Shown here: one piece after another, positions 28,269 through 62,645 of the stretch
Position numbering within the stretch: position 1 is the stretch's first letter
How the letters are laid out: every line of letters starts with the position of its first letter
NCBI GenBank assembly: GCA_005772855.1
Contig: SXIK01000173.1
Location: 28,895-92,894, forward strand
Direction of reading: 5' to 3'
Length of the DNA stretch: 64,000 nucleotides
Source of the DNA: Planctomycetia bacterium
GTDB taxonomy: Bacteria > Planctomycetota > UBA8108 > SXIK01
Program-made: the position numbers and the translations under genes
The notes under the pieces: generated by a model
Databases searched by the model: none
Seen by the model: only the letters and a program-made list of their open reading frames with translations
What the model was told of the DNA's origin: nothing

Positions 28269-29017
28269 GGCTCGCCCCGATCCGCGAGCTTCCGCTCGGC
28301 CTCGGTGGCTCGCAGGTACCTGGGCTCGAGTCGGTGGACAGCCTCGGAATCAAAGCAAGCCGTTGCCGCACGCTCAAGCGCGATCTCGCCAAGGACGCGG
28401 GCTTGGGGGAGATCCCAGCCCGGGTCTCCTCGGTAGAAGGAGCAAGTCTCAATCTTCTCGAGAAACGCAACTGCGCCCTCGCCAATAACGCAGGCATCCG
28501 GGAGAGAGCCAGCGTGGTCCTCTCGAAGAATCCGGAGGATGGCCGAAGGCTCGTCCGCGGCGTCCTCGAATCTTCGTTGCAGAGTATTGAATGGGGATCG
28601 CCCCTGGGAGGGTGTCGAGGGCTCGATCAAGTCGAAGAGCCCCCAAAAAAAAGCCCCCTGCCTTGCATCGAGCACGACAAGGCAGGAATGTGCACGTCCC
28701 TTGCCTGCAACGTTCGCTGCACAGACCAGGAGTGAGGACTCAGTGACCACCGGAATCTCAAGTGCATAGGCCAGGCTCTTCGCGGCCGTGACTCCGACAC
28801 GAATACCGGTGAAGCTTCCCGGGCCAATGCTTACTGCGATGGCCGAGAGTTCCTTGACGCCTCGCCCGGTCTCCCGCAGGAGATGGTCAATGCGAGCGGT
28901 AATCTCCCTGCCATGGATCAAGCCATCGGGGAAAACTTCCTCCCGCAGGCATCCAGTCTCGTCGCAGAGGGCGACGCTGCCCCGACGGCTGGAAGTCTCA
29001 ATGGATAGAAGGAGCAT
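28265..29017 (-). CDS. tsaB: tRNA threonylcarbamoyladenosine biosynthesis protein TsaB
   Basis: LLLSIETSSRRGSVALCDE..ITARIDHLLRETG..SIGPGSFTGIRVGVTAAKSLAYALEIPV; 4-bp overlap with downstream gene. Confidence 0.92.
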   Translation of the reverse strand: MLLLSIETSSRRGSVALCDETGCLREEVFPDGLIHGREITARIDHLLRETGRGVKELSAIAVSIGPGSFTGIRVGVTAAKSLAYALEIPVVTESSLLVCAANVAGKGRAHSCLVVLDARQGAFFWGLFDLIEPSTPSQGRSPFNTLQRRFEDAADEPSAILRILREDHAGSLPDACVIGEGAVAFLEKIETCSFYRGDPGWDLPQARVLGEIALERAATACFDSEAVHRLEPRYLRATEAERKLADRGEP

Positions 29018-46874: not shown

Positions 46875-47798
46875 ATGAACCGACACATTTCTCCTGCTCG
46901 TCTCGCCTCCATCGCCGCGATGATCCTTTCATTTTTCGGCGGGGCAAGATCCGAGGACGCGCTTCAGTTGAACTTCGGTATCTATACCTCCGACAAGCCC
47001 ACGGACATGTATCGCGCCTTCAAGCCGGTCCTGCTCGAGCTCGAGAATGCCCTGACGAAGGAGCTTTCTCGCACGACGCAAATCAAACTGCGCGTGTTCA
47101 CCACGTACGAGGCAGCCCGTGAGGCCCTCCTCAAGGAGGAGGTCGACTTCGCCCGTCTCGGCCCCTCGTCCTTCATCCTCGCCCTTGAGAAGAATCCCGC
47201 CGTGCGCCTCCTTGTGATCGAGGAGCAAGAAGGCCAACACACCTTCAAGGGCGTAATTTTCACGCGAGAAAATAGCGGCGTGCAGGAGATCAAGGATCTC
47301 AAGGGCAAGTCCTTCGCGTTCGGCGATCCGGATTCAACGATCGGCCGTTACCTTTCGCAGTCCTACCTCGTCAGCGCGGGCATCTACGCCCGGGACCTGA
47401 GCAAGTTTGAGTACCTGGACCGCCATGACAAGGTGGTCGACTCCGTCCTCGCGGGCAAGTTCGACGCCGGCGTGGCGAAGGAGGGCACGGTCGCCAAGTT
47501 CAAGAACAAGGGCGTCAAGGTCCTCGAGACGTTTGAAAACGTCACAAAGCCCTGGGTCGCCCGTAGCAAACTCGAGGCAAAAATTGGCGACACGATCCAG
47601 AAGTGCCTGGGCGCGCTGAAGGACAAGAAGGCGCTCGATTCCATCGGGGAAAAGATCACCGGCTTCGATGTGGAGCACGCAAAGAGCGAAATTTTCGAGC
47701 CAGTGCGTATTGGCATGAAGAAGGCGGAGGAGTTCGCGAAGGGCCCCTCGACGCAACCGGCCCTCGAGAAGGCGACAGGGGTGGAGCCCGCGAACTAG
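46875..47798 (+). CDS. PhnD-like phosphate/phosphonate-type periplasmic binding protein
   Basis: LNFGIYTSDKPTDMYRAFKPVLLELENAL..YEAAREALLKEEVDFARLGPSSFILA..IKDLKGKSFAFGDPDSTIGRYLSQSYL. Confidence 0.88.
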   Translation: MNRHISPARLASIAAMILSFFGGARSEDALQLNFGIYTSDKPTDMYRAFKPVLLELENALTKELSRTTQIKLRVFTTYEAAREALLKEEVDFARLGPSSFILALEKNPAVRLLVIEEQEGQHTFKGVIFTRENSGVQEIKDLKGKSFAFGDPDSTIGRYLSQSYLVSAGIYARDLSKFEYLDRHDKVVDSVLAGKFDAGVAKEGTVAKFKNKGVKVLETFENVTKPWVARSKLEAKIGDTIQKCLGALKDKKALDSIGEKITGFDVEHAKSEIFEPVRIGMKKAEEFAKGPSTQPALEKATGVEPAN

Positions 47799-47834: not shown

Positions 47835-50561
47835 ATGAAACGCCTGAACACCAAGCTGACCCTTGTACTCCTGGGGAGTCTCCTCGGCACCTCGATCGTG
47901 ACGGGAATGCTGGTCATCCGGAGCCAGACCGAGGTCCTCACGCGACAGCTCGACTACGATGGCAAGGCACTCTCGAAGACGATGGCCGATATCGCCGTCG
48001 AGATCGCCATCGCGGATGATTGGCTGAGATTCCAGGATCAGGTCGAAAAGGCCGCTCAGGGGAACCGTCAGGTTCGTTTCATCCAGGCTCACGATGAGAA
48101 CGGCAAGCTTCGGGCTTCCTACCCACCCGTGGCTGAGAGAGATGTCTGGCAGGCCTCGCCCAGCCTCAGGGTATTCGAGAGTCCCATCGTGATCGCGATC
48201 GAGGGCCTTCCCCAGGAGGTCCGCGGCCATGTGAAGGTGGGCCTCAACAACGACCGGCTCGGAGAGCTCACGGCACGCAGCCTCTCCGAACTGATCACCG
48301 GCACAGTGATCGGTTTCTCAATTCTGGCCCTGGTGCTCTGGTTGGCCCTCAGAAAGCAGGTCATTCACCCTCTGGGTGAGCTTGACAAGCACGTTGGGAC
48401 AATCTCGAGGGGCGACCTGACGCAAGCCGTCACGACTTCCCGCAAGGACGAGATCGGTCGCCTGGCCATGGGTCTCGAGACCATGCGGGTAAACTTGCGC
48501 GAGTCCCGCCGGAAAATCGAAGAGCAAGTCATCGCGCTAGAGGATCTCGATCGGATGAAGGACGAGTTTCTTGCGAGCACTTCTCATGAGCTCAAGACGC
48601 CGCTCAACGGCATCCTCGGACTCGGCGAGAGCCTGCTGCTTGGGTCCTACGGCGAGATCACGAAGGAGCAGCGGGAGGCTGTCGAGCTGATGGCATCCTG
48701 CGGCACCCGGCTCTGGAAAATGACGGACTCGATCCTCAAGTTCTCACGCCTCCACCACGAGGACCCGCAAGACCAGAGTCCTCCCGAGCCCCACCGCCTC
48801 GCCGAACACCTTCACCAAGGCCTGGCGGACCTGCGCTCGAACGCCGAAAGGTCGGGCGTGCGGATCCTCCAGGCAATCCCGGGAGACCTTGAGGTTGTTT
48901 ACCCGCGCAACGAGCTGGAACAGATTATCCGAATCTTTACCAACAACGCGATCAAGTACGCATCCGGCGGGATGGTACAGATTATCGCTCAGAAGTGGGG
49001 TGACGGGCCACAGCGGGGTTTCCAGATCGCCGTCCGCGATAACGGGCCGGGCATTCCAACCAGCCAGCACTCCAAGATTTTTGAGCCTTTCGTCCAGGCA
49101 GGAACCCACGAGACCCGGGTGCAGGGAGGCGTGGGACTGGGGCTGGCGATCGCAGCCAGGCTCATCAGCCGAATCGGTGCGCAGGTGCTCCTCGAGAGCG
49201 ACGTCGGCAAGGGTGCCTGCTTCACTCTCCTGGTTCCCGATGGCGAGGTCAAAGTTCCTGACCTCAAGACAGCCTTCATCCCATGGCCGGCCTTCTCACA
49301 CTCCCTGCGCATGCACCTGGAGGCAGAGAAGACCGAGGCTCCCATCACGACCTCGGCCCCCCCGGTTCGGGTCTCGACTGATTCTGGCCACATCCTCGTG
49401 GTCGATGATGAGAGCGTGAACCGGGAGGTCGTCTGGCAAGCTCTCAAGGACGGTTTCCAGGTCACCCGCGCCGCCGACGGCATGAGCGCGCTCGAGGTGC
49501 TGCGGAATCAGAGTGTGGACCTCGTGCTGCTCGACATCATGATGCCGGGAATGTCCGGCTATGACGTCCTTCAGTCGATGAGGAGCGAGGGGTTGCTCGA
49601 AAAGGTCCCGGTGATTGTGCTCAGCGCGAAAGCTGCCAAGGAAGCAGTCGTGAAGGGTCTCGAGCAGGGAGCTTCGGACTACCTCGGAAAGCCGTTCCAC
49701 AGGGCCGAGCTGCTCTGCCGGGTACGAGTCCACCTACAGATCAAGAAGCAGCGGGACCAGCTCCGATCCGAGGTGGCCGCAAAAACGAACGCTCTTGAGG
49801 TCGCCGAGCATGCGAGCAAGATCAAGACTCAGTTTCTCGCCAATATGTCGCACGAGATTCGTACACCCCTCAACGGGATCCTGGGCTTCCTCGAGCTTTG
49901 CGCCTCCTCGGACGTGCCAAGCGAGCAAGCGGAGTACCTGGGCCTGATGGAGGAGCGCACGAAGTCACTCCTCACGATCGTGGGCGACATCCTGGACGTT
50001 GCGAAGATCGAGTCCAAGCAGGTGCGTGTGGAGGCGGTCGACGTCGTTCCCGCCGAGCTGGTCCGTGAGCTGGCAGAGGCCTACTCCGCCGAGGCTTCAC
50101 GGAAGGGGCTCACCCTCCGCTGGGAATGCGAACGATCCTGCTACGAAGCCATGAAGGTCGACCTCAGAAAGCTCGAACACATCCTCCGCAACCTGCTCGG
50201 AAATGCCGTGAAGTTCACCCGGGCGGGAACGATCGAGCTGAAAGCCAAATTCAGCACGGGCCCAGAGGGCGACTCGATGCTCCGCTTCGAAATAAAGGAC
50301 ACCGGAATCGGCATCCCGAGGAGCCAGTACGAGGAGATCTTCCAGCCCTTTACGCAAGCGGACAGCTCCAACACGAGGGAGTTTGGTGGAACTGGTCTCG
50401 GCCTCGCGATCGCCAGGTCTTACGCCCGCATGCTGGGCGGCGACATCTCGCTGGAGAGCGAGCCCGGCGTGGGAAGTCTGTTCACGATCACGGTGCGCGC
50501 GCTTGCGGCTTCGGGGACCGCCGCAAACGCCCGGGCTCTTGCCGAATGCGTCCCTGCGTGA
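47835..50561 (+). CDS. Hybrid sensor histidine kinase: TM/sensor-HAMP-HK-REC-HK
   Basis: First H-box STSHELKTPLNGILG; REC HILVVDDESVN..VDLVLLDIMMPGMSGYDVL..LSAKA..GKPF; second H-box NMSHEIRTPLNGILGF; two HATPase G-boxes (GVGLGLAIA, GTGLGLAIA). Confidence 0.94.
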   Translation: MKRLNTKLTLVLLGSLLGTSIVTGMLVIRSQTEVLTRQLDYDGKALSKTMADIAVEIAIADDWLRFQDQVEKAAQGNRQVRFIQAHDENGKLRASYPPVAERDVWQASPSLRVFESPIVIAIEGLPQEVRGHVKVGLNNDRLGELTARSLSELITGTVIGFSILALVLWLALRKQVIHPLGELDKHVGTISRGDLTQAVTTSRKDEIGRLAMGLETMRVNLRESRRKIEEQVIALEDLDRMKDEFLASTSHELKTPLNGILGLGESLLLGSYGEITKEQREAVELMASCGTRLWKMTDSILKFSRLHHEDPQDQSPPEPHRLAEHLHQGLADLRSNAERSGVRILQAIPGDLEVVYPRNELEQIIRIFTNNAIKYASGGMVQIIAQKWGDGPQRGFQIAVRDNGPGIPTSQHSKIFEPFVQAGTHETRVQGGVGLGLAIAARLISRIGAQVLLESDVGKGACFTLLVPDGEVKVPDLKTAFIPWPAFSHSLRMHLEAEKTEAPITTSAPPVRVSTDSGHILVVDDESVNREVVWQALKDGFQVTRAADGMSALEVLRNQSVDLVLLDIMMPGMSGYDVLQSMRSEGLLEKVPVIVLSAKAAKEAVVKGLEQGASDYLGKPFHRAELLCRVRVHLQIKKQRDQLRSEVAAKTNALEVAEHASKIKTQFLANMSHEIRTPLNGILGFLELCASSDVPSEQAEYLGLMEERTKSLLTIVGDILDVAKIESKQVRVEAVDVVPAELVRELAEAYSAEASRKGLTLRWECERSCYEAMKVDLRKLEHILRNLLGNAVKFTRAGTIELKAKFSTGPEGDSMLRFEIKDTGIGIPRSQYEEIFQPFTQADSSNTREFGGTGLGLAIARSYARMLGGDISLESEPGVGSLFTITVRALAASGTAANARALAECVPA

Positions 50562-50775: not shown

Positions 50776-53700
50776 ATGCCCCGCCGAATCTTGTTTCTTG
50801 TCAACTTCAGGCACCCCATTGACCTCAGGTGGGGCCTTTCGAGCGCGCTGCTGGCGCTCACCCCTTCACCGCTCTGGGCCATTCCCTCCCCGGATCTGGT
50901 CGTCAACTTCGTCGCCAGCGCGGCCCAGGTTCTCGGTCTCCTGACCGTTGTCGCGGGGAGCTTCGCCTACTCCGGCGCGAAGCACTCCCGGGCTCGTGGC
51001 GCGACATCATCCAACCGGCGCTGGCCATTCAGGATCTTGACGACGCTCCTGCTGGTCTCCGTGGTGGCCAACGTCCTCCAGTACTCTTCCGGCATGGACT
51101 CGAGGAACCAGCGGCTCCAGACAAACCTCTGGCGCTCCTCCACCGAGGCGGGCAAGAAGGTCGGCGACGTCAACTTGAAGACACTTTCGATCAGCGACCA
51201 GCAGAAACGCCCCGAAGCCATCACGACGGAAACGCTTGAACGCTGGATGAGTGAAAAGAAGCCTCTGAACTTGATTGACGTCCGCGAGAGCGAGGAGGTC
51301 GAGATGGGCAAAATCGAGGGCGCCTGGCCCCGCCGCTACCCCGACTTGCTCAAGGACCGCACGGGGCTGATCGTGGAGGGAAAAGAGACCCTCCTTCTGT
51401 GCGAGTCCGGCAATCGAAGCGGGGAGCTCTGCGGAAAGTTTCTAGAAGAAAAATTGCCCTGCCGCTTCGTGATCGGTGGCTACGAAAAGTGGGTGGCCGA
51501 GGGACGCCCGATGGTGGACATGCAGGCACGAGCCTCGGGCGAGATCCGTGACATCCCGGAATACCCCAGGAAGGCAGTCCTCCTCGACACTCCGGAGGTA
51601 ATGGCGCTCCTTGAAAGCGAGAACGCTCTCTTCGTCGACGTGCGCTACCCCGGGGACTTTGCGCTGGGTCACTTGCCCGACGCCGTCAATTTGGCTCTGC
51701 GGCCGATGCTCTCGAGCGAGATTGAGCCTGCGCTGAAGGCTCTTCCGAAGCGCCCCATCGTGGCGCCATGCTACGACAAGCGGAGCTCATTTTACGCCAT
51801 GATTCTGGGGCTTCGCCTCCACCGAATGGGCCTCGACTTCCGCGGTCGCTACACGGTACCTCACGAGTTCGCGCAAAAAGTAGAGGACAAGGCCTGGGTG
51901 AGTCAGTGGAAGGAAGCGCAGGCTGGTTCCACCCTGCTCGGGGTGGTGTCGAGGCCTCTCACCTCTTCCCTGAAATGGCTCGAGGCTCGCACCGGGAGCC
52001 TGCTCCTTGGCATCGTCAGCCTCGTCCTCGTCCTGCGACTGCTCGTCCTGCCCTTGACGGCCAAGGCGGACCGCGACCAACTCATCCAGAAGCGTCTCGC
52101 TCCTCAGGTCAAGGAGCTCAAGGCGCGCCTCAAGGGAGATCCCCAGCGGCTCTCTCGAGCGATCCTGGGACTCTATCGCAAGGAGCGCTTGACTCTCGGG
52201 CGTAATCTGCTCGGCACCACCGCGCAGATCTTGTTGTTCATTGTCTTTTTTTCCGTGGTGGGCAACGTCGCTGCCAACTCAAACGAGGCCATTGCCTGGC
52301 TGCCCAGCCTCGCCAATCCCGACCCGCTCCACATTCTCCCTGTCATCGTGGGAATGCTCATCTGCGTCTTCTTGATCTGGAACACCGAACAACGAACGCC
52401 GCTCCGGGTCGCAGGCCACGTCGCTTGCGGGCTCCTCCTCCTGGGAATCACATTCCACCTCAAAGCGGCGGTCAACATTTACCTTGCGACAAATTTAACG
52501 CTGCTCATTACGCAGAGCCGCATCGTACGCTGGGCCCTTCGGTCCCGGAGCGCCCCTGCCCAGGGGAGCCCGGAGACACCCCCGCTCGAGGATCCCGGGA
52601 TCGCGCCCCTGAGACTCGCTCACAGGGTCGCAGGCGCCGGAAACAAGGCGATCCGGCTCGGCCGAATGCTCGAGGAAGGCATTCCCGTTCCGGATGGCTT
52701 CATCGTCACGGACGCTCTACTGGGACGCTCGGCTGACAAACTCGAGCTGACCCCCGGGGAGGAACGTAGGGTCTCGAAGGCGTGGAGGGATATTCGGGCG
52801 GTCCACGTCGCCGTGCGCAGCTCGGGCCTCAACGAAGATGGCGCCCAAAAAAGCTATGCGGGCGTCTTCGAGTCGATCCTGAACGTCCCGAGAGAGCGGT
52901 TCTACCACGCTTTGGCCGAAGTACACGGGTCACTACGGGCCTCCCGGGTACTTGCCTACAGCGGCCTGGCGAAGGAGCGTGGCGGGATCGTGGTGCAGAA
53001 GATGGTTCCCGCCGAGTACGCGGGAGTGCTCTTCACCGAGCATCCCGCGACCCTGGGCTGTATGCTCGTCGAGCTCGTCAAGGGCCTGGGAGATGCGCTG
53101 GTCAGCGGAACCGCGACCCCCACCTCTTTTCGCTACGGGCGCTTCTCGGGCAAGCTGCTTGAAACCAACCCGCCGCCGGTGGATCTTGCCGGGCTCATCG
53201 AGCTGGGTCAAAGAGTGGAAAAGATCTTCAAGAGGCCCCAGGACATCGAGTGGGCCTACGCGGCCGGCAAGTTCATGATCCTTCAAGCTCGGGACATCAC
53301 GACGTCTTCGCGAGCCGGAGCCCACCGAAAGGCTGTCCTTGAGTCGGAACGCCATCGGATACTCGAGCTGGCCGCAAGGAGCCTCCAGGAGGCCGAAGCC
53401 GAGGGGATCGACGTGCTCCCGGCAGCGGACCCGGTGGTCTTTGCACAAAATGAGCTCTCGGAGCTGTTGCCTCGCCCAACTCCGCTCAGTTTGAGCTTCA
53501 TGGAGTCGCTCTGGGCTCCCGGCGGCAGCACGGACCTGGCGTGCCGGTCTCTCGGCATTCCCTATGACGCGGCCGAAAACGCCCCGCCGCTGGTGAACAC
53601 CATCTTTGGAAACCTGTACGTGAGCACCATCGAAACTCGGCGCAGGCTCCGGCGCGGGCCCGGGGCGGCTGCGAGCTTCAAGCTCGCCAGGGCCGGCAAG

Positions 53701-55152
53701 GGACTCGAGGAGGAGATGAGGCACTTCTTCGCCGACTTCTTGAAGGAGGTCCGACTGCGTGAGGCCCTCGACCTGAAACGACTTACGATGGACGAAGTGC
53801 TGGCGCTGTTGCGGGAGTGGAACCATCGCTTTCTGACGGACACTTACGTACAGGCGGAACGTATCAACCTGGCTGCGGACTTTTATCTCAAGGTCGCAAA
53901 GCAAGAGATCGAGAAGCGGGGCCTTGATCCCTCCACGTATCTGGGTCAAGTCCCCGAGACCGTCGTCCATGAGGCGATGTGCCTCCTTTACGCGATCCAG
54001 ATCGGCGAGCGACGGGTGGAGGATTTTCTTGCCTTGTTCGGTCACCGGGCGCCGGCGGATTACGAGCTCTCCAGGCCCCGTTACCAGGAGGATCCCAACC
54101 TCGTGGCCGAAATGGTCTCCAGGGCTCGTGCCAAGAATCACCCCGCGACCGAGCTGAAGCCTCCCGAGGCGCCGACGGATCGAATGTTCGAGTTGGCCGT
54201 CGATCGTGCATGCCGCTTCCAGGTGCTCAAGGAGGAGGCGAAGCACCACAGCCTGCGGGAGCTTGCGCTCATCCGGAGAGTGATTGTGGAGATCGGAACT
54301 CGTGTCGAGCTCGGAGCCGACGTTTTCCTTCTTACGCTCGATGAAACGCTGAAGTTGAACAACTCGGAGTTCTTGAATGATGCCATCGACCTCGTGGAGC
54401 AGAGAAAACATGACGCCATGGCCTTCGAGGGCATTCGCCTGACCACGGAGCTGCGTCTGTCGGAAATTGAGAGTCTGCTCGTGGACGAGGGTGGTATTCG
54501 CGCCGCGCAACCACTCGTGGTTAACGAAGGAAGTCTCCGTGGAACGCGCGTCGCCGGCGCCAAGGACGTCGAGGGCCGTGTTCGGGTAGTCACCGAGCCC
54601 GCCGACATCGATTCCTTTGAACGGGGCGAGATTCTCGTGGCCCGCTTCACCGACCCGACATGGACGCCTCTCTTCCCCCTGGCGGCGGGAGTCATCACCG
54701 AGGTCGGGGGTTGGCTGAGCCACGCCGCAATCGTGGCGAGGGAATACAACGTGACATGCAACGTGGGGGTGAATGGAGCCATCGCAAGCCTGCAATCGGG
54801 CGATCATGTACAGCTCAAAGCAGATGGATCTGTCATCAAGAAAAGGGGTGCAGGGGATCGAGTCAGCCTTGCAAGGCTGCCTTCTTCCGCGCCCGTGGCG
54901 ATGGTCATGCAGGGGCAAATCATCGAGGCTCTGCTCAGAACCTTCTCGTCCACGGAGGCGATCGTCGACGTGCAGGACCAGGAGCTCAAAGTGGGCCAAG
55001 GGCTCTCCATCACGCTCCCAGGCCACAACGGTAAAGTCGTCGAGGCCAGGGTCTTGCGCCGGCACAAGTCGGGCGGCTACGCCATTAGCTTCAAGAAGCC
55101 GCTCGACGATGGCTCCGGCCCCGAAGAAGCCAGGGGGCCCCAGAAGAACTAG
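50776..55152 (+). CDS. Rhodanese-rhodanese-YidC/Oxa1-like-PPDK/PEP-synthase-like (ATP-grasp + swivelling His)-beta-rich tail fusion
   Basis: Rhodanese Cys loops LLCESGNRSGELC (C209) and PCYDKRSSF (C332); YidC-like LVLRLLVLPLTAKADRDQLIQKRLAPQVKELKARLKGDPQRLSRAILGLYRKE (aa ~405-590); PPDK_N AGNKAIRLGRMLEEGIPVPDGFIV..VAVRSSGLNEDGAQKSYAGVFES..PQDIEWA..LQARDIT; swivel GGWLSHAAIVAREYNV (H1316). Confidence 0.92.
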   Translation: MPRRILFLVNFRHPIDLRWGLSSALLALTPSPLWAIPSPDLVVNFVASAAQVLGLLTVVAGSFAYSGAKHSRARGATSSNRRWPFRILTTLLLVSVVANVLQYSSGMDSRNQRLQTNLWRSSTEAGKKVGDVNLKTLSISDQQKRPEAITTETLERWMSEKKPLNLIDVRESEEVEMGKIEGAWPRRYPDLLKDRTGLIVEGKETLLLCESGNRSGELCGKFLEEKLPCRFVIGGYEKWVAEGRPMVDMQARASGEIRDIPEYPRKAVLLDTPEVMALLESENALFVDVRYPGDFALGHLPDAVNLALRPMLSSEIEPALKALPKRPIVAPCYDKRSSFYAMILGLRLHRMGLDFRGRYTVPHEFAQKVEDKAWVSQWKEAQAGSTLLGVVSRPLTSSLKWLEARTGSLLLGIVSLVLVLRLLVLPLTAKADRDQLIQKRLAPQVKELKARLKGDPQRLSRAILGLYRKERLTLGRNLLGTTAQILLFIVFFSVVGNVAANSNEAIAWLPSLANPDPLHILPVIVGMLICVFLIWNTEQRTPLRVAGHVACGLLLLGITFHLKAAVNIYLATNLTLLITQSRIVRWALRSRSAPAQGSPETPPLEDPGIAPLRLAHRVAGAGNKAIRLGRMLEEGIPVPDGFIVTDALLGRSADKLELTPGEERRVSKAWRDIRAVHVAVRSSGLNEDGAQKSYAGVFESILNVPRERFYHALAEVHGSLRASRVLAYSGLAKERGGIVVQKMVPAEYAGVLFTEHPATLGCMLVELVKGLGDALVSGTATPTSFRYGRFSGKLLETNPPPVDLAGLIELGQRVEKIFKRPQDIEWAYAAGKFMILQARDITTSSRAGAHRKAVLESERHRILELAARSLQEAEAEGIDVLPAADPVVFAQNELSELLPRPTPLSLSFMESLWAPGGSTDLACRSLGIPYDAAENAPPLVNTIFGNLYVSTIETRRRLRRGPGAAASFKLARAGKGLEEEMRHFFADFLKEVRLREALDLKRLTMDEVLALLREWNHRFLTDTYVQAERINLAADFYLKVAKQEIEKRGLDPSTYLGQVPETVVHEAMCLLYAIQIGERRVEDFLALFGHRAPADYELSRPRYQEDPNLVAEMVSRARAKNHPATELKPPEAPTDRMFELAVDRACRFQVLKEEAKHHSLRELALIRRVIVEIGTRVELGADVFLLTLDETLKLNNSEFLNDAIDLVEQRKHDAMAFEGIRLTTELRLSEIESLLVDEGGIRAAQPLVVNEGSLRGTRVAGAKDVEGRVRVVTEPADIDSFERGEILVARFTDPTWTPLFPLAAGVITEVGGWLSHAAIVAREYNVTCNVGVNGAIASLQSGDHVQLKADGSVIKKRGAGDRVSLARLPSSAPVAMVMQGQIIEALLRTFSSTEAIVDVQDQELKVGQGLSITLPGHNGKVVEARVLRRHKSGGYAISFKKPLDDGSGPEEARGPQKN

Positions 55153-57827: not shown

Positions 57828-58379
57828 ATGAGTTTACCCCCCCACCCTCCGAACCCCGCCGAAGAAATTGTCGACCTCGTCGATGAGGAAAACCGTGTAA
57901 TAGGGAGCACCACCCGGCGCGAAGTCCGTGCCCGCAATCTGCTTCACAGAGGCGTGGGAATCCTCTGCAGGAACTCGAGCGGAGAGATCTACGTTCACCG
58001 TCGCACAAGCACCAAGGACATCTTTCCCGGCATGTACGACATGCTTGTTGGAGGCGTGGTAGGCGCAAGCGAGAGCTACGAAGCAGCCGCCACGCGTGAA
58101 ATTGCCGAGGAGCTCGGGATCGAAGGCCCTGAACCGGAGCTGCTTTTCCTTCACCTCTACCAGGGACCTCACAATCGGAGCTGGGTGGCCGTCTACGAGG
58201 TAACCTGGGACGGCCCGATCCACCACCAGGAAAGCGAAGTAGCATGGGGCAACTACATGACCGAGAAGGACCTGATGCGGAAACTTGAAGACTGGGACTG
58301 GGTCCCGGACGGCCTTGAGATCTTCCAGCGCTACTTGCAGTCCGGGAGGCAGTCCCCTCCCGCGTCAGAGCCCGCCTGA
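57828..58379 (+). CDS. NUDIX hydrolase (IDI-like subfamily)
   Basis: Nudix box GGVVGASESYEAAATREIAEELGIE; RRTSTKDIFPGMYDM. Confidence 0.92.
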   Translation: MSLPPHPPNPAEEIVDLVDEENRVIGSTTRREVRARNLLHRGVGILCRNSSGEIYVHRRTSTKDIFPGMYDMLVGGVVGASESYEAAATREIAEELGIEGPEPELLFLHLYQGPHNRSWVAVYEVTWDGPIHHQESEVAWGNYMTEKDLMRKLEDWDWVPDGLEIFQRYLQSGRQSPPASEPA

Positions 58380-60121
58380 GGAAACGGGGAGGCTGGAGAG
58401 GACCCACCGCTGAACAGAAAGTTCAAGAGGTAGACCCCATCGGTGAGATTGATCACTGCGTCGTCATTGGTGTCGCAGGCATCAGGACACGCGGGAACGC
58501 CTTTTCCGAGGAAAAGATAGGAAAACACTGTCACTGCGTCAGTAATTTCCAGGGTTCCCGAAGAGGAGTCGCAATCACCCCGGACAAAGAGAACAAGGCT
58601 TTCGTCGCAATGGCCAGGGTACTCGTAGGCGCCAAGGTCAGGCCTGTAGTGGCTCTGGCTCGTGTCACAGACCGTCGACATGCGTCGGCAGTTGCCCGCA
58701 AAATCGGTCTTGATCTCGAGAGCATCCGCCACGATCCCCCTGTCGATCGCGTCCGAAAGAGCGGTGAGACGAAAGTCAAAGGCGGCGGGCGCCTCAACTC
58801 GGGGGTCCCCTGTATGATTCTGCCCCCCCTCGATCGTGGTGAGGGAGGACTTCTCAAGAAGGTTGTGCCTGATGGCTGAGTCAACGGTGGGAAACACAAT
58901 GCTTCGGTCCTCGTGCGTCCTCTTGAAGACCTCATCATAAAACTCAGATTCCCCGCCAATCTGCCAGCAAATGTTGTTGGTAAAACGGTATGGCGTCAAC
59001 CCATTGCCCTCGGCGACAAGCTCCTCCAGGTTATCGCCGTAGATAACATATTGATGGATTCCAACGAAGGTATTGCTCAGGATGCTGATGTTATTCAGGT
59101 GGAACTCTCGAGTGCTGAGATAAAGCCCATTCTCCACCTGCACCTTCAATGGTTCCGCAGGGTCGGGCAGGCCGTTGACGACATTCCCGGAGAAGTTGAA
59201 ATTCAAGGCCCCTCCCTTCACCGGAAAGGCGTCCGAACTCGCGCACTCCGTGACTTGCACTGCCGAGGCCACGCCCCGGAAAATGCACCGTTCGATACGA
59301 ACGGACAACTCGGATTGGAGCTCAAGGTAAAGGTCGATCCCAGCTCCAAGGAGCTTCCGTGGGGAGTAACGCCTCATCTCGTGGAATTGGCAGTCCTCAA
59401 CCGTGAGACTCAAGGCTGCGCTTTCCGGCGAGCTCACATAGATGCCCTCCGACGATCTCCGGAACACGCAGTGTTTCACCTCAATGGTCACAAGCGACCC
59501 CTTCAGGGGCGCAGCCTCCAAACCATGGGCGGATTGTCCCTCGATCCAGCAGTCCTCGATTCTGAGCTTCGCATCCCGGCTAACCGTGTCAAAAACAGTG
59601 AACGCCTGGCGCCCGCCAAATATCTGTAGTCCCGAGAAACTGAAGCGAGGCGCCTTTTCAAACTCCTCGGACCGAATCTTGAAAACCTCGACATTGGGGT
59701 CCACGTTCTCTATCCGAACCGAACCCACCCCCCCCGAGGCAACAAATTCTACAGAGTCGAACCCAACGGGCGGCACGAGTGGAAAGACGTTGAAGGATTC
59801 GCCGCCTTCCAAATTCCGATACTGGCCGCGAAGGAGCTCGAACCGGACCGCCTTGTGATTCTTTCCCTCCAACAGCTTTTCAACCGAGCGAATCGCATAA
59901 TCGATGGTGAGGAAGGGACGATCCTTTCCCCCGGAGCCATCTGCGTCTTCCGCATGGAGCCGATCGGGCCTCACATAAACCACGAGCGGACCGTCAGCTT
60001 CGGCCAGGCACCATGCTCGGCCTCCAAGCAGAAGACTGACACCCAGAAGCGCCCCAAGAGCGGAGCAAACAACGCATCGCAAAGCTCGTGCCTGGCTCAT
60101 TGTGCTCACCTTTTCACTCAA
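58331..60121 (-). CDS. Secreted right-handed beta-helix protein with C-terminal dockerin-like repeats
   Basis: Signal peptide; parallel beta-helix-like repeats; tail FVRGDCDSSSGTLEITDAVTVFSYLFLGKGVPACPDACDTNDDAVINLTDGVYLLNFLFSGG. Confidence 0.82.
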   Translation of the reverse strand: MSEKVSTMSQARALRCVVCSALGALLGVSLLLGGRAWCLAEADGPLVVYVRPDRLHAEDADGSGGKDRPFLTIDYAIRSVEKLLEGKNHKAVRFELLRGQYRNLEGGESFNVFPLVPPVGFDSVEFVASGGVGSVRIENVDPNVEVFKIRSEEFEKAPRFSFSGLQIFGGRQAFTVFDTVSRDAKLRIEDCWIEGQSAHGLEAAPLKGSLVTIEVKHCVFRRSSEGIYVSSPESAALSLTVEDCQFHEMRRYSPRKLLGAGIDLYLELQSELSVRIERCIFRGVASAVQVTECASSDAFPVKGGALNFNFSGNVVNGLPDPAEPLKVQVENGLYLSTREFHLNNISILSNTFVGIHQYVIYGDNLEELVAEGNGLTPYRFTNNICWQIGGESEFYDEVFKRTHEDRSIVFPTVDSAIRHNLLEKSSLTTIEGGQNHTGDPRVEAPAAFDFRLTALSDAIDRGIVADALEIKTDFAGNCRRMSTVCDTSQSHYRPDLGAYEYPGHCDESLVLFVRGDCDSSSGTLEITDAVTVFSYLFLGKGVPACPDACDTNDDAVINLTDGVYLLNFLFSGGSSPASPFPQAGSDAGGDCLPDCK

Positions 60122-60379: not shown

Positions 60380-62443
60380 CTACTTCTTCCGACCAGGTTT
60401 TCTTGGCTTCGAGCCTTGCCGGGACGCAGAGGGCTTTGGAGCAAGTTTCATATTGGCTTTTCGAGCGGCAGGAATCACGGGGGTAGTGGGAGCGCTCGGC
60501 TTGCCGCTCCCCAGAACCGTCGGTCGCATGGGAGCGCTGAGGCTCTTGCCCAGGCTGACTCCTTCGGTCCTTCGGAGTGCGGCGGCTGCCGGAGACTTCG
60601 AAGCAGCAGCAATGTTCCCCTGAAGCGGGGACTTGGCCCCAGGATTCCCAGGCGCCTGGTGCGAACCGGCGAGCACTGGGGAGGTCGCCGAGCTGCCAGA
60701 GGCGACCGGCAAGAGGCCAGCCTTCTTGAGCTTTCTGAGCTCCTTCTTGCGAGCAACCTCGGCGGCAACCCGCCCGGCCTCCACAGCAGCCTCCAAGGTC
60801 TTGGCCTGAAGTTGAAGTTTGTGAGCGGCAGGCCCCATCTCCTTGCTCTTCGGGTATTTCTTTACCACATGCTCCAGCATGGCCGTGGAGAAGGGCCGCA
60901 TGTCTTCCCCTTCTTCGGAGAAATGGAAACCCAGGTAGAAGAAATCTTCGGAATCCAGATTCTTGTCGTGGACAAGGCGCTTTACGAGGTCGTCGTAGTT
61001 GTCGTAAATGAGGGCCCGAATCACACGCAGGCCAAGGTTCGCTCGCCGGGCTGCGGGGGCCAGATCCTTCGAGCTCGACTTTACGAGCGCCACGGCAAGG
61101 AGGTAGCGTCCTTCTGCCGTGATCAGGTGGTTGTCCCACAAAATCTGGAGTAGCCCCGCCATACGTTCCCAACGGTCCTTTAACTTGCCCTTCTTGAGCA
61201 ATTGCGCTTTTTCGTAAATCCGTTTGCGAAGCGGCTGGGGATCGAGGCTTTTCACAAACTCGAGGAAAGACTTGTAGTGCAGGTCGTTCTCCTCGTAGAG
61301 GGCCAGAAGCTTGGAAGATGCTCGCTCCACATACTTCTGTCGAGTCTCCTGGGGGAAATCCCGGAGGATCGCGTTGATACGCTGCGTAACCTCGAGGTCA
61401 TCCGTCTTCATGAGGAGCGAGAAAAGGCTCTCGATCGACTTTGGCATTTTTCGGAGAGCCGCCTCGGCCGCATCCCGTACGCGAAAGCGTGAATCCGCCA
61501 GGAACGGAAGAATGGCCTCGGCCACTTCGGGCCGATCCGAGCTTTGCAATCGCTCAAATATGTGGATGTGCACCGAGAAATGCGGTGTCTGGTGTAGAAG
61601 AACCACAAGCTTCGGCAGCAATTTCCTGGGGAGCTCAAGCCTCTGAAACGCGAAAAGCCCGTTTTGAGCAACGTTGTGCCAGTCCTCGTCGCAGAGGCTC
61701 TTCCAAAGGAATTGCTCTTCTGCTGTGGAAAGCTTCGTCTTGCCGACTAGCCTGTTGAAGGAGACCATCGCGTGCCGCCTCACCTCGCTTGGATACTTCT
61801 TGTCCGCCAGCAGGCGTAGCTCGTTTCGAGCTCGTGTGGCCACACTCCCTCCACGAAAGTGCCCCAGCAGGATGGCTGCAGTCACAAGAACTTGGGGGTG
61901 CTTCTCTATCTCCTTGGATCGTAGAAGCCGCAACACCATGCCATAGATCGGGCTCTGGAGGGCCGGGGGCATGCGATCAAGCGCCTCGCAGATGCAAAGC
62001 GCAAGGTGCTTCTGAAGCTCGAAAGGCTCTTCGGGCAGAATCTTGAGGAGGAACTGGAGCGCAGGCTTGCCACCGATTCGAGCCAGAGCGGTAATGACAG
62101 CCTTCTTGCCATGGAAGTCGGCCTCGGGGTAAAGGACCCTTAGCTGCCCAATCACGCTCGGTCCCACCGAGGAGATGACCGCCATGGCCTGCTCCCTTAG
62201 CGGACCCGACTCCAGGATCAGCGGAACTACCGTATGCGCCACATCCTTCGCCCCCAATCGAGCAAGAGCCCTGAGGGCACCCAACCGAAGCTCATCGTGC
62301 GGCTCACGCAGACAACGCCCCAGGGAGTGAATCACAGACTTCGAGGATAACCCGATCTCCGCGACGACTCGTACGGAGGCAATACGGAGCTCGATGTCGT
62401 CCGAGTCGAGGAGTCGGGAGAGCTTGCTGAGGAGCGCGTTCAT
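60380..62443 (-). CDS. HEAT-repeat protein with basic, low-complexity C-terminal tail
   Basis: Tandem HEAT units (LRLGALRALARLGAKDVAHTVVPLILESG etc.); Ala/Pro/Ser/Lys-rich tail; start at M45 of ORF. Confidence 0.8.
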   Translation of the reverse strand: MNALLSKLSRLLDSDDIELRIASVRVVAEIGLSSKSVIHSLGRCLREPHDELRLGALRALARLGAKDVAHTVVPLILESGPLREQAMAVISSVGPSVIGQLRVLYPEADFHGKKAVITALARIGGKPALQFLLKILPEEPFELQKHLALCICEALDRMPPALQSPIYGMVLRLLRSKEIEKHPQVLVTAAILLGHFRGGSVATRARNELRLLADKKYPSEVRRHAMVSFNRLVGKTKLSTAEEQFLWKSLCDEDWHNVAQNGLFAFQRLELPRKLLPKLVVLLHQTPHFSVHIHIFERLQSSDRPEVAEAILPFLADSRFRVRDAAEAALRKMPKSIESLFSLLMKTDDLEVTQRINAILRDFPQETRQKYVERASSKLLALYEENDLHYKSFLEFVKSLDPQPLRKRIYEKAQLLKKGKLKDRWERMAGLLQILWDNHLITAEGRYLLAVALVKSSSKDLAPAARRANLGLRVIRALIYDNYDDLVKRLVHDKNLDSEDFFYLGFHFSEEGEDMRPFSTAMLEHVVKKYPKSKEMGPAAHKLQLQAKTLEAAVEAGRVAAEVARKKELRKLKKAGLLPVASGSSATSPVLAGSHQAPGNPGAKSPLQGNIAAASKSPAAAALRRTEGVSLGKSLSAPMRPTVLGSGKPSAPTTPVIPAARKANMKLAPKPSASRQGSKPRKPGRKK

Positions 62444-62645
62444 GGGTCCTGACGTTTTTTTGGTTAAATAGGACAAAATGGAGAGCACAACATAACTTGA
62501 TCCAAACCAAAAGAACAGTTTTTTTGATCCAGGCTCTCCAGTACAGTAAAATCGGCCTAAAGTTTTCTGGTACAACGAATTAGGATATCAAGAGCCTCTT
62601 TCGGGGAAGCGAATCTGCCGAACCTACTGAAAAGGAGTCTGACCC

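Follow-up and report, generated by a model that had tools for sequence, protein, structure and literature searches.

What could a single protein do that joins two rhodaneses, an insertase-type membrane core and an ATP dikinase? The question is raised by a 1458-residue open reading frame (ORF) in a 64,000-nucleotide stretch of DNA (positions 28,895 to 92,894 of contig SXIK01000173.1, assembly GCA_005772855.1, Planctomycetia bacterium), which is referred to here as the window (features are listed in Table 1). The fusion is a genuine, widely conserved bacterial protein. We hold, with moderate confidence, that it is a membrane-spanning ATP dikinase of the rifampin phosphotransferase (RPH) type that would serve as the ligand-processing arm of a periplasmic sensory module and so belong to its input side.

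The reading frame was open throughout, and the same order of domains (two rhodaneses, a YidC/Oxa1 core, a PPDK_N ATP-grasp domain, an RPH-like middle domain and a phosphohistidine swivel) was found in 42 independent homologues and in complete plasmid genomes, which ruled out a sequencing chimera or a missed frameshift. An earlier note on this DNA, made from the letters alone, had described such an ORF and had named missed stops or frameshifts, or failure of the YidC fold, as grounds for abandoning it; the frame proved intact, the fold was recovered (see below), and each of its domain calls was borne out by Pfam or alignment. All the Pfam domains named (Rhodanese, 60KD_IMP, PPDK_N and PEP-utilizers) exceeded their curated cut-offs. 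In the family alignment of 42 full or near full-length fusion sequences, R421, Y569, K624, R681, E687, D688, Q741, E766, E825, Q837 and R839 were kept in 42/42, and the catalytic H1316 in all 39 rows with proper sequence at that point, loci L013 and L018 being truncated and L039 out of frame there. Structures were predicted with AlphaFold, from alignments of the window protein and its homologues, for two stretches. That of aa 36-860 (mean predicted local distance difference test, pLDDT, 83.6; predicted TM-score, pTM, 0.47; relative placement of the domains unsure) matched RPH, the YidC proteins of Escherichia coli and B. halodurans, and rhodaneses in Foldseek, and that of aa 600-1360, the dikinase (mean pLDDT 88.2, pTM 0.84), found its best structural match in RPH-Lm (5hv1, E 4e-30).

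The genome scan yielded approximately 50 fusion loci, 33-61% identical (loci numbered past L052 represent the dikinase part only), in Planctomycetota, Gammaproteobacteria (Granulosicoccus, Methylothermaceae and others), Alphaproteobacteria (Rhodobacteraceae, Hyphomicrobiales), one betaproteobacterium, Myxococcota and Nitrospirota. Occurrence was patchy, with 7/10 genomes in the window's order and 4/150 in Rhodobacteraceae containing the fusion. The pairwise distances of seven fusion segments correlated at 0.76-0.91, and the domains are therefore inherited together.

The YidC/Oxa1 core, which the earlier note had placed at aa ~405-590, was detected by 60KD_IMP (PF02096) at aa 411-584 (1.7e-19, 70.8 bits versus a cut-off of 35). 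Its hidden Markov model (HMM) matched the solved YidC 4utq (1.9e-24), and the AlphaFold model matched 6al2 (7e-9) and 3wo6 (TMt 0.75). Similarly, the Arg421 that had been equated with the groove arginine of YidC aligned with E. coli R366, and this residue and Y569 (E. coli Y517), whose E. coli counterparts keep the YidC groove hydrated (PMC8920935), were conserved in 42/42 fusions although the domain showed only ~36% mean identity. Such retention would suit a dedicated insertase, in which one particular membrane protein, such as the partner sensor, is placed in the membrane by the YidC domain, with the dikinase as power source or gate. However, T362, reported as essential in E. coli YidC after a T362A mutant was found inactive in one study (PMC4124156), is not kept and corresponds to V417 in the fusion. 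With the model for the YidC insertase proper (TIGR03592), the fusion scored 71.0 bits, under the 84.3 cut-off. Furthermore, the genomes tested carry a separate canonical YidC, except for one small draft and one genome with only a contig-end fragment; on these grounds an ordinary duplicated YidC was also rejected. YidC insertion has no known use of ATP, and overall a dedicated insertase appears improbable.

For its part, the predicted cytosolic half was recognised by PPDK_N (8.3e-36) and by PEP-utilizers at aa 1281-1349 (1.1e-18). HMM alignment with RPH-Lm (numbered as the 5hv2 position minus 12) paired K22, R117, T136, E297, R666, E667, K670 and H825 with K624, R681, S700, E825, K1152, E1153, K1156 and H1316, respectively. 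Thus K22, R117, E297, E667, K670 and H825 are identical in the fusion, the last of these being the swivel histidine picked out by the earlier note, and T136 is conservatively replaced by Ser. Throughout the fusion family and its split form (see below), R666 is replaced by Lys and E667 is kept, whereas the other dikinases examined have R-E. K22, R117 and T136 act in the ATP half-reaction of RPH-Lm, whose acceptor half requires R666/E667 (PMC4844700). No phosphoenolpyruvate (PEP)/pyruvate TIM barrel was present among the Pfam hits of the fusion, only PilZ or tails lying beyond the swivel, so a PEP synthase was rejected, sequence and fold being nearest RPH; the missing barrel named in the earlier note is confirmed, and its RPH-like acceptance of phosphate gains strength from the residue mapping. 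The score with the model for rifampin phosphotransferase proper (NF041857) was 172.8 bits versus a cut-off of 999. Most likely, the enzyme half works like a known enzyme.

RPH-type acceptor domains accept bulky hydrophobic substrates (rifampin, prodigiosin precursors), and RedH and PigC models matched the fusion. Both facts would fit a lipid or polyprenol kinase, in which the YidC fold offers a membrane-embedded alcohol to the cytosolic dikinase and the sensor monitors the envelope state. A distant dikinase lineage is also found in lipid-metabolism-like operons (UbiA, CTP_transf_1-like, DUF3419, AMP ligase), but this lineage shares only 23-25% identity, branches outside the clade of fusions and carries R-E instead of K-E as its acceptor-site pair. 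A lipid kinase gives no account, moreover, of the rhodaneses or of the oxyanion-type binding protein described below, and we regard it as rather unlikely. Of the membrane-localised phosphotransferase with a perhaps lipidic acceptor that had been proposed, the membrane location stands, while nothing shows the lipid acceptor.

The N-terminal signal peptide is followed by an IPSP[DE]LV motif, the IPSP of which is invariant or nearly so in the 42 homologues. The loop between the two subsequent transmembrane (TM) segments is strongly basic in 42/42 (mean K+R 5.8, D+E 0.2), and the loops of the YidC domain follow the known YidC orientation. Because of the signal peptide, the basic loop (positive-inside rule) and this orientation, a periplasmic location is predicted for the rhodaneses and a cytosolic one for the dikinase. 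Pfam Rhodanese matched two stretches (2e-17), and the model matched 3gk5 (TMt 0.88). C209 and C332 are each Cys in 40/42 homologues; the second domain, with R336 and S337 kept in 42/42, is the most conserved of the fusion (mean identity, 0.545). In fold and active-site Cys loop the two domains are rhodaneses, and they are putative sulfurtransferases. The union of insertase fold, rhodanese and dikinase domains pointed out by the earlier note is real, but direct chemistry between rhodanese and dikinase would not be expected without transport, since they are predicted to lie on opposite sides of the membrane.

Two zetaproteobacteria, Ghiorsea (L059) and one other (L097), have a split form, in which a 633-639-aa YidC-core gene overlaps a downstream dikinase gene. 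The YidC core was detected at 3e-9 in L097 (above the cut-off) and at 4e-5 in L059 (below it). The L059 protein reads as a signal peptide, an ALPTPD motif, two TM segments, a periplasmic part and then the YidC core; its dikinase groups with the fusions in the tree (100/99), on a long branch whose exact position is unsure.

The most informative fact on the fusion is its linkage to a binding-protein sensor, which lies beyond the segment covered by the earlier note. In the window, a PtxB/PhnD-like periplasmic binding protein and a hybrid sensor histidine kinase are both encoded upstream of the fusion. The former scored 5e-33 with TIGR03431 (PhnD; below cut-off) and 4e-32 with TIGR01098 (just under cut-off), and its family profile matched the phosphite-binding PtxB 5o2j (1e-35). 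Because its nearest solved relatives bind phosphite, the ligand is suggested to be a phosphorus oxyanion or phosphonate-like compound. When the pocket was matched by eye to that of AioX (Y88, S161, S163, H192), Y78, S154 and H184 were found to be kept and S163 replaced by Ile. No conserved Cys was present in the family alignment to correspond to AioX Cys106, and AioX-type arsenite sensing was rejected on that account.

The binding-protein gene adjoins the fusion, directly or with the kinase in between and co-directional or divergent, in 34/50 loci, and its neighbourhoods usually include a sensor kinase. In three further loci (L052, L023 and L035) the cognate protein is encoded elsewhere in the genome (360-428 bits versus <60 for other binding proteins), and in L022 and L028 a PstS-like protein replaces it. 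The transducer varies: most loci have a hybrid kinase, L005, L012 and L028 a GGDEF-EAL protein, and L022 a chemoreceptor. By BLAST, the sensors of the L005 and L012 GGDEF-EAL proteins resemble the kinase type, and the L022 chemoreceptor and L028 GGDEF-EAL protein share a second sensor type, a likeness judged by reading the sequences. At the level of sequence, then, domain order, conserved catalytic positions and linkage to a PtxB/PhnD-like protein with interchangeable transducer output can be taken as established. Since the outputs interchange, the fusion stays and the binding protein remains matched to its sensor, the fusion is assigned to the input side: it would make, remove or import the ligand, and would not be tied to one response.

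These partners bear on two other explanations. If the periplasmic rhodaneses passed sulfane sulfur or selenium through the groove to the phosphohistidine, thiophosphate or selenophosphate would be formed together with AMP and Pi, and the PtxB/PhnD-like protein would sense a related anion. Rhodanese, dikinase and phosphorus-oxyanion-type binding protein would thereby be accounted for jointly, and the acceptor-site Arg-to-Lys change common to family and split form would allow an acceptor different from that of RPH. Nevertheless, no recurrent selenium or sulfur-pathway genes were recognised in the neighbourhoods examined, and the split form is without the rhodanese Cys motif; such a synthase seems to us improbable. 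Alternatively, the swivel histidine, homologous to that of Enzyme I of the phosphotransferase system (PTS), would phosphorylate a linked signalling protein and not a metabolite. The swivel domain of the model matched Enzyme I structures, the fusion is commonly near signalling proteins, and some members have PilZ or GAF tails; but a complete RPH-type acceptor domain with conserved K-E would be superfluous for a protein-only relay, and outputs vary while the fusion does not, which makes a relay very improbable.

The tail of the window protein scored below the cut-off for PilZ, the receptor domain for cyclic di-GMP (c-di-GMP; 18.6 bits versus 22.5), and has TFSSTE instead of [D/N]xSxxG. At the C-termini of L003, L027, L020 and L006, PilZ is intact by both cut-off and motif (2e-12 for the L003 tail), L006 having a GAF domain as well, and Granulosicoccus fusions have long RR-rich tails in its place. 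Together with the GGDEF-EAL partners elsewhere, the intact tails hint at cross-talk with c-di-GMP.

How firmly the fusion belongs to a sensory module can be weighed from co-occurrence. In the window's order (10 genomes), the binding protein was present in 7/7 genomes with the fusion versus 1/3 without; among Rhodobacteraceae (n=150), the cognate protein was present in 4/4 versus 1/146 (p = 2.5e-7, uncorrected for relatedness; because the genomes sampled are related, this value is not one for independent events). That limit weighs against the module, as do several other points. Parachitinimonas caeni (L037) has the fusion and no such binding protein in its genome, and none was found in the draft genomes of L014, L020, L024 and L006. 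Conversely, G214 and G003 carry binding protein and kinase without the fusion, G214 with no remnant of it by tblastn. The periplasmic part of the Ghiorsea protein does not contain the rhodanese Cys motif. The next gene in L014 was rejected as a substitute binding protein (beta-propeller lipoprotein-like by eye, no Pfam hit). In G003 (L125:4367-10245, contig C159), two receiver-like ORFs lie near the binding protein and sensor kinase.

For a membrane-spanning dikinase within such a module, the following course may be envisaged. The cytosolic part would move an ATP phosphate onto H1316, ATP ending as AMP and Pi; the swivel domain would then move, and an acceptor near K1152/E1153 would be phosphorylated, as in rifampin phosphotransferase. 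The YidC-type groove might hold this acceptor or pass it between membrane and cytosol, the periplasmic rhodaneses (C209, C332) might carry persulfide or otherwise act on a periplasmic form of the substrate, and the binding protein would signal the periplasmic level of substrate or product to histidine kinase, GGDEF-EAL protein or chemoreceptor. What the substrate is, which way it is transported and what the rhodaneses do are the parts that we infer. In a bolder version, which we think unlikely, the Oxa1-superfamily fold has been recruited to form the membrane component of an enzyme for ATP-driven group translocation. After contact with the rhodaneses, a periplasmic substrate would cross the groove, and phosphohistidine transfer would trap it on the cytosolic side, or the process would run the other way; a dedicated binding-protein sensor with exchangeable outputs would exert control.

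At least 80% of the fusion was contained in each of 81 plasmids, mostly of Phaeobacter and Leisingera (Roseobacter group), where, among the rows listed, it is annotated only as a PEP/pyruvate-binding or rhodanese-like domain protein. The copy of P. inhibens DSM 17395 is PGA1_RS19240 and lies on pPGA1_262, with PGA1_RS19235 as the binding protein and PGA1_RS19230 as the kinase. Curing of this plasmid is possible and improves growth (PMC5421792), which makes the gene accessory in that strain and its function directly testable there. Membership in the TDA antibiotic cluster was rejected, as that cluster sits elsewhere on the plasmid (PGA1_262p00800-00980, PMC11974857; tda transposon positions near 104-107 kb, PMC5421792). 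For anti-phage defence, PADLOC returned nothing for the fusion.

Beyond the earlier note, the analysis brought out the signal peptide with IPSP[DE]LV, two extra TM segments, a PilZ tail that is degenerate, and both genes upstream (Table 1). Elsewhere in the window, a weak, secreted-looking right-handed beta-helix protein (58331-60121, minus strand), whose C-terminal region reads like a dockerin-type repeat, and a HEAT-repeat protein with a basic low-complexity tail (60380-62575, minus strand) are encoded. Among the distant dikinases, the operon in L062:5053-12983 runs UbiA prenyltransferase, TIM-barrel-less dikinase, DUF3419, CTP_transf_1-like, unknown, AMP-ligase; it looks like an undescribed lipid or prenyl pathway of Melainabacteria/Gastranaerophilales and Rubritalea, domains having been scanned in L062 alone and L061, L063-L067 and L069 assigned by similar gene order. 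In Poribacteria (L053:4803-9829; L056 and L058 by gene lengths only), a dikinase of this broad type is flanked by genes for a GFO/IDH/MocA oxidoreductase and for a homologue of the quinolinate synthase NadA.

Table 1. Coordinates of the fusion, its parts and its upstream partners in the window
Feature	Position	Strand	Evidence
PtxB/PhnD-like periplasmic binding protein, 307 aa; motifs YTSDKPT, FAFGDPDSTIGRYLSQ, YLDRHD, NVTKPW	46875..47798	+	TIGR03431, TIGR01098
Hybrid sensor histidine kinase, 908 aa: periplasmic sensor, HAMP, HisKA-HATPase, receiver, second HisKA-HATPase	47835..50561	+	Pfam HAMP, HisKA x2, HATPase x2, Response_reg
Rhodanese-rhodanese-YidC-ATP dikinase fusion, 1458 aa	50776..55152	+	Single uninterrupted ORF, 1458 codons
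Signal peptide, aa 1-35, ends before conserved IPSPDLV	50776..50880	+	Cleavage inferred
TM1 (aa 41-59), basic cytosolic loop, TM2 (aa 83-101)	50896..51078	+	Hydropathy
Rhodanese domain 1, loop CESGNRS, C209 (codon 51400-51402)	51217..51510	+	Pfam
Rhodanese domain 2, loop CYDKRSS, C332 (codon 51769-51771)	51577..51873	+	Pfam, two Rhodanese stretches
YidC/Oxa1 core; R421 (52036-52038) = E. coli R366, Y569 (52480-52482) = E. coli Y517	51979..52545	+	PF02096
PPDK_N ATP-grasp; K624, R681, S700, E825 = RPH-Lm K22, R117, T136, E297	52609..53310	+	Pfam; alignment to 5hv2
RPH-like acceptor domain; GHR (1089-1091); K1152-E1153 (54229-54234) = RPH-Lm R666-E667	53443..54405	+	Alignment
Phosphohistidine swivel, H1316 (codon 54721-54723)	54547..54840	+	Pfam PEP-utilizers
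C-terminal PilZ-like domain, degenerate in window protein	54874..55113	+	Pfam PilZ 0.0024 (tail scanned alone)

No description of the fusion protein was found in the open-licence PubMed Central literature, a scope that leaves out subscription papers and most preprints and so does not prove absence; in the searchable parts of Phaeobacter papers, queried with the plasmid locus tags, the locus is not mentioned. Each domain is known, but the literature searched contains no account of the combination, of its conservation across phyla or of the plug-in sensory module, and we rate the architecture as categorically new. The YidC/Oxa1 fold is known for protein insertion and is not known from metabolic enzymes. 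With an enzyme that is conserved and retains the groove residues, this fold would gain a second use, and next to the PTS the fusion would represent a transmembrane phosphotransferase of a new kind; ligand screening of the co-inherited binding protein gives a route to the substrate.

Four groups of known systems resemble parts of the locus. With the YidC/Oxa1/Alb3 insertases (4utq, 3wo6, OXA1L), the fusion shares the core fold, the R366/Y517 groove residues and the cytosolic hairpin, but it has rhodaneses where the insertase has its periplasmic P1 domain, does not keep T362, bears a C-terminal enzyme and occurs in hosts that keep their own YidC. With the TIM-barrel-less dikinases RPH-Lm (5hv1/5fbs), HpeI (9goj), PigC and RedH, it has the succession of ATP-grasp, acceptor and swivel domains in common; compared with RPH-Lm, the fusion has Lys for R666, plus a membrane core and two periplasmic rhodaneses. 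In the AioX-AioS-AioR three-component sensors (PMC5908839), a PhnD-superfamily binding protein is likewise encoded with a sensor kinase, whereas the present module has no conserved Cys, a pocket Ser replaced by Ile with an invariant Arg nearby, interchangeable output, linkage to a fusion enzyme, and phosphite-binding PtxB as its closest solved structures. Finally, PtxB and PhnD, which bind phosphite and phosphonate, resemble the window binding protein in fold and, with positions matched by eye, in the S-T...H-D oxyanion motif, but the latter, in the loci examined, is linked to signal transducers and not to genes for a phosphonate ATP-binding cassette permease.

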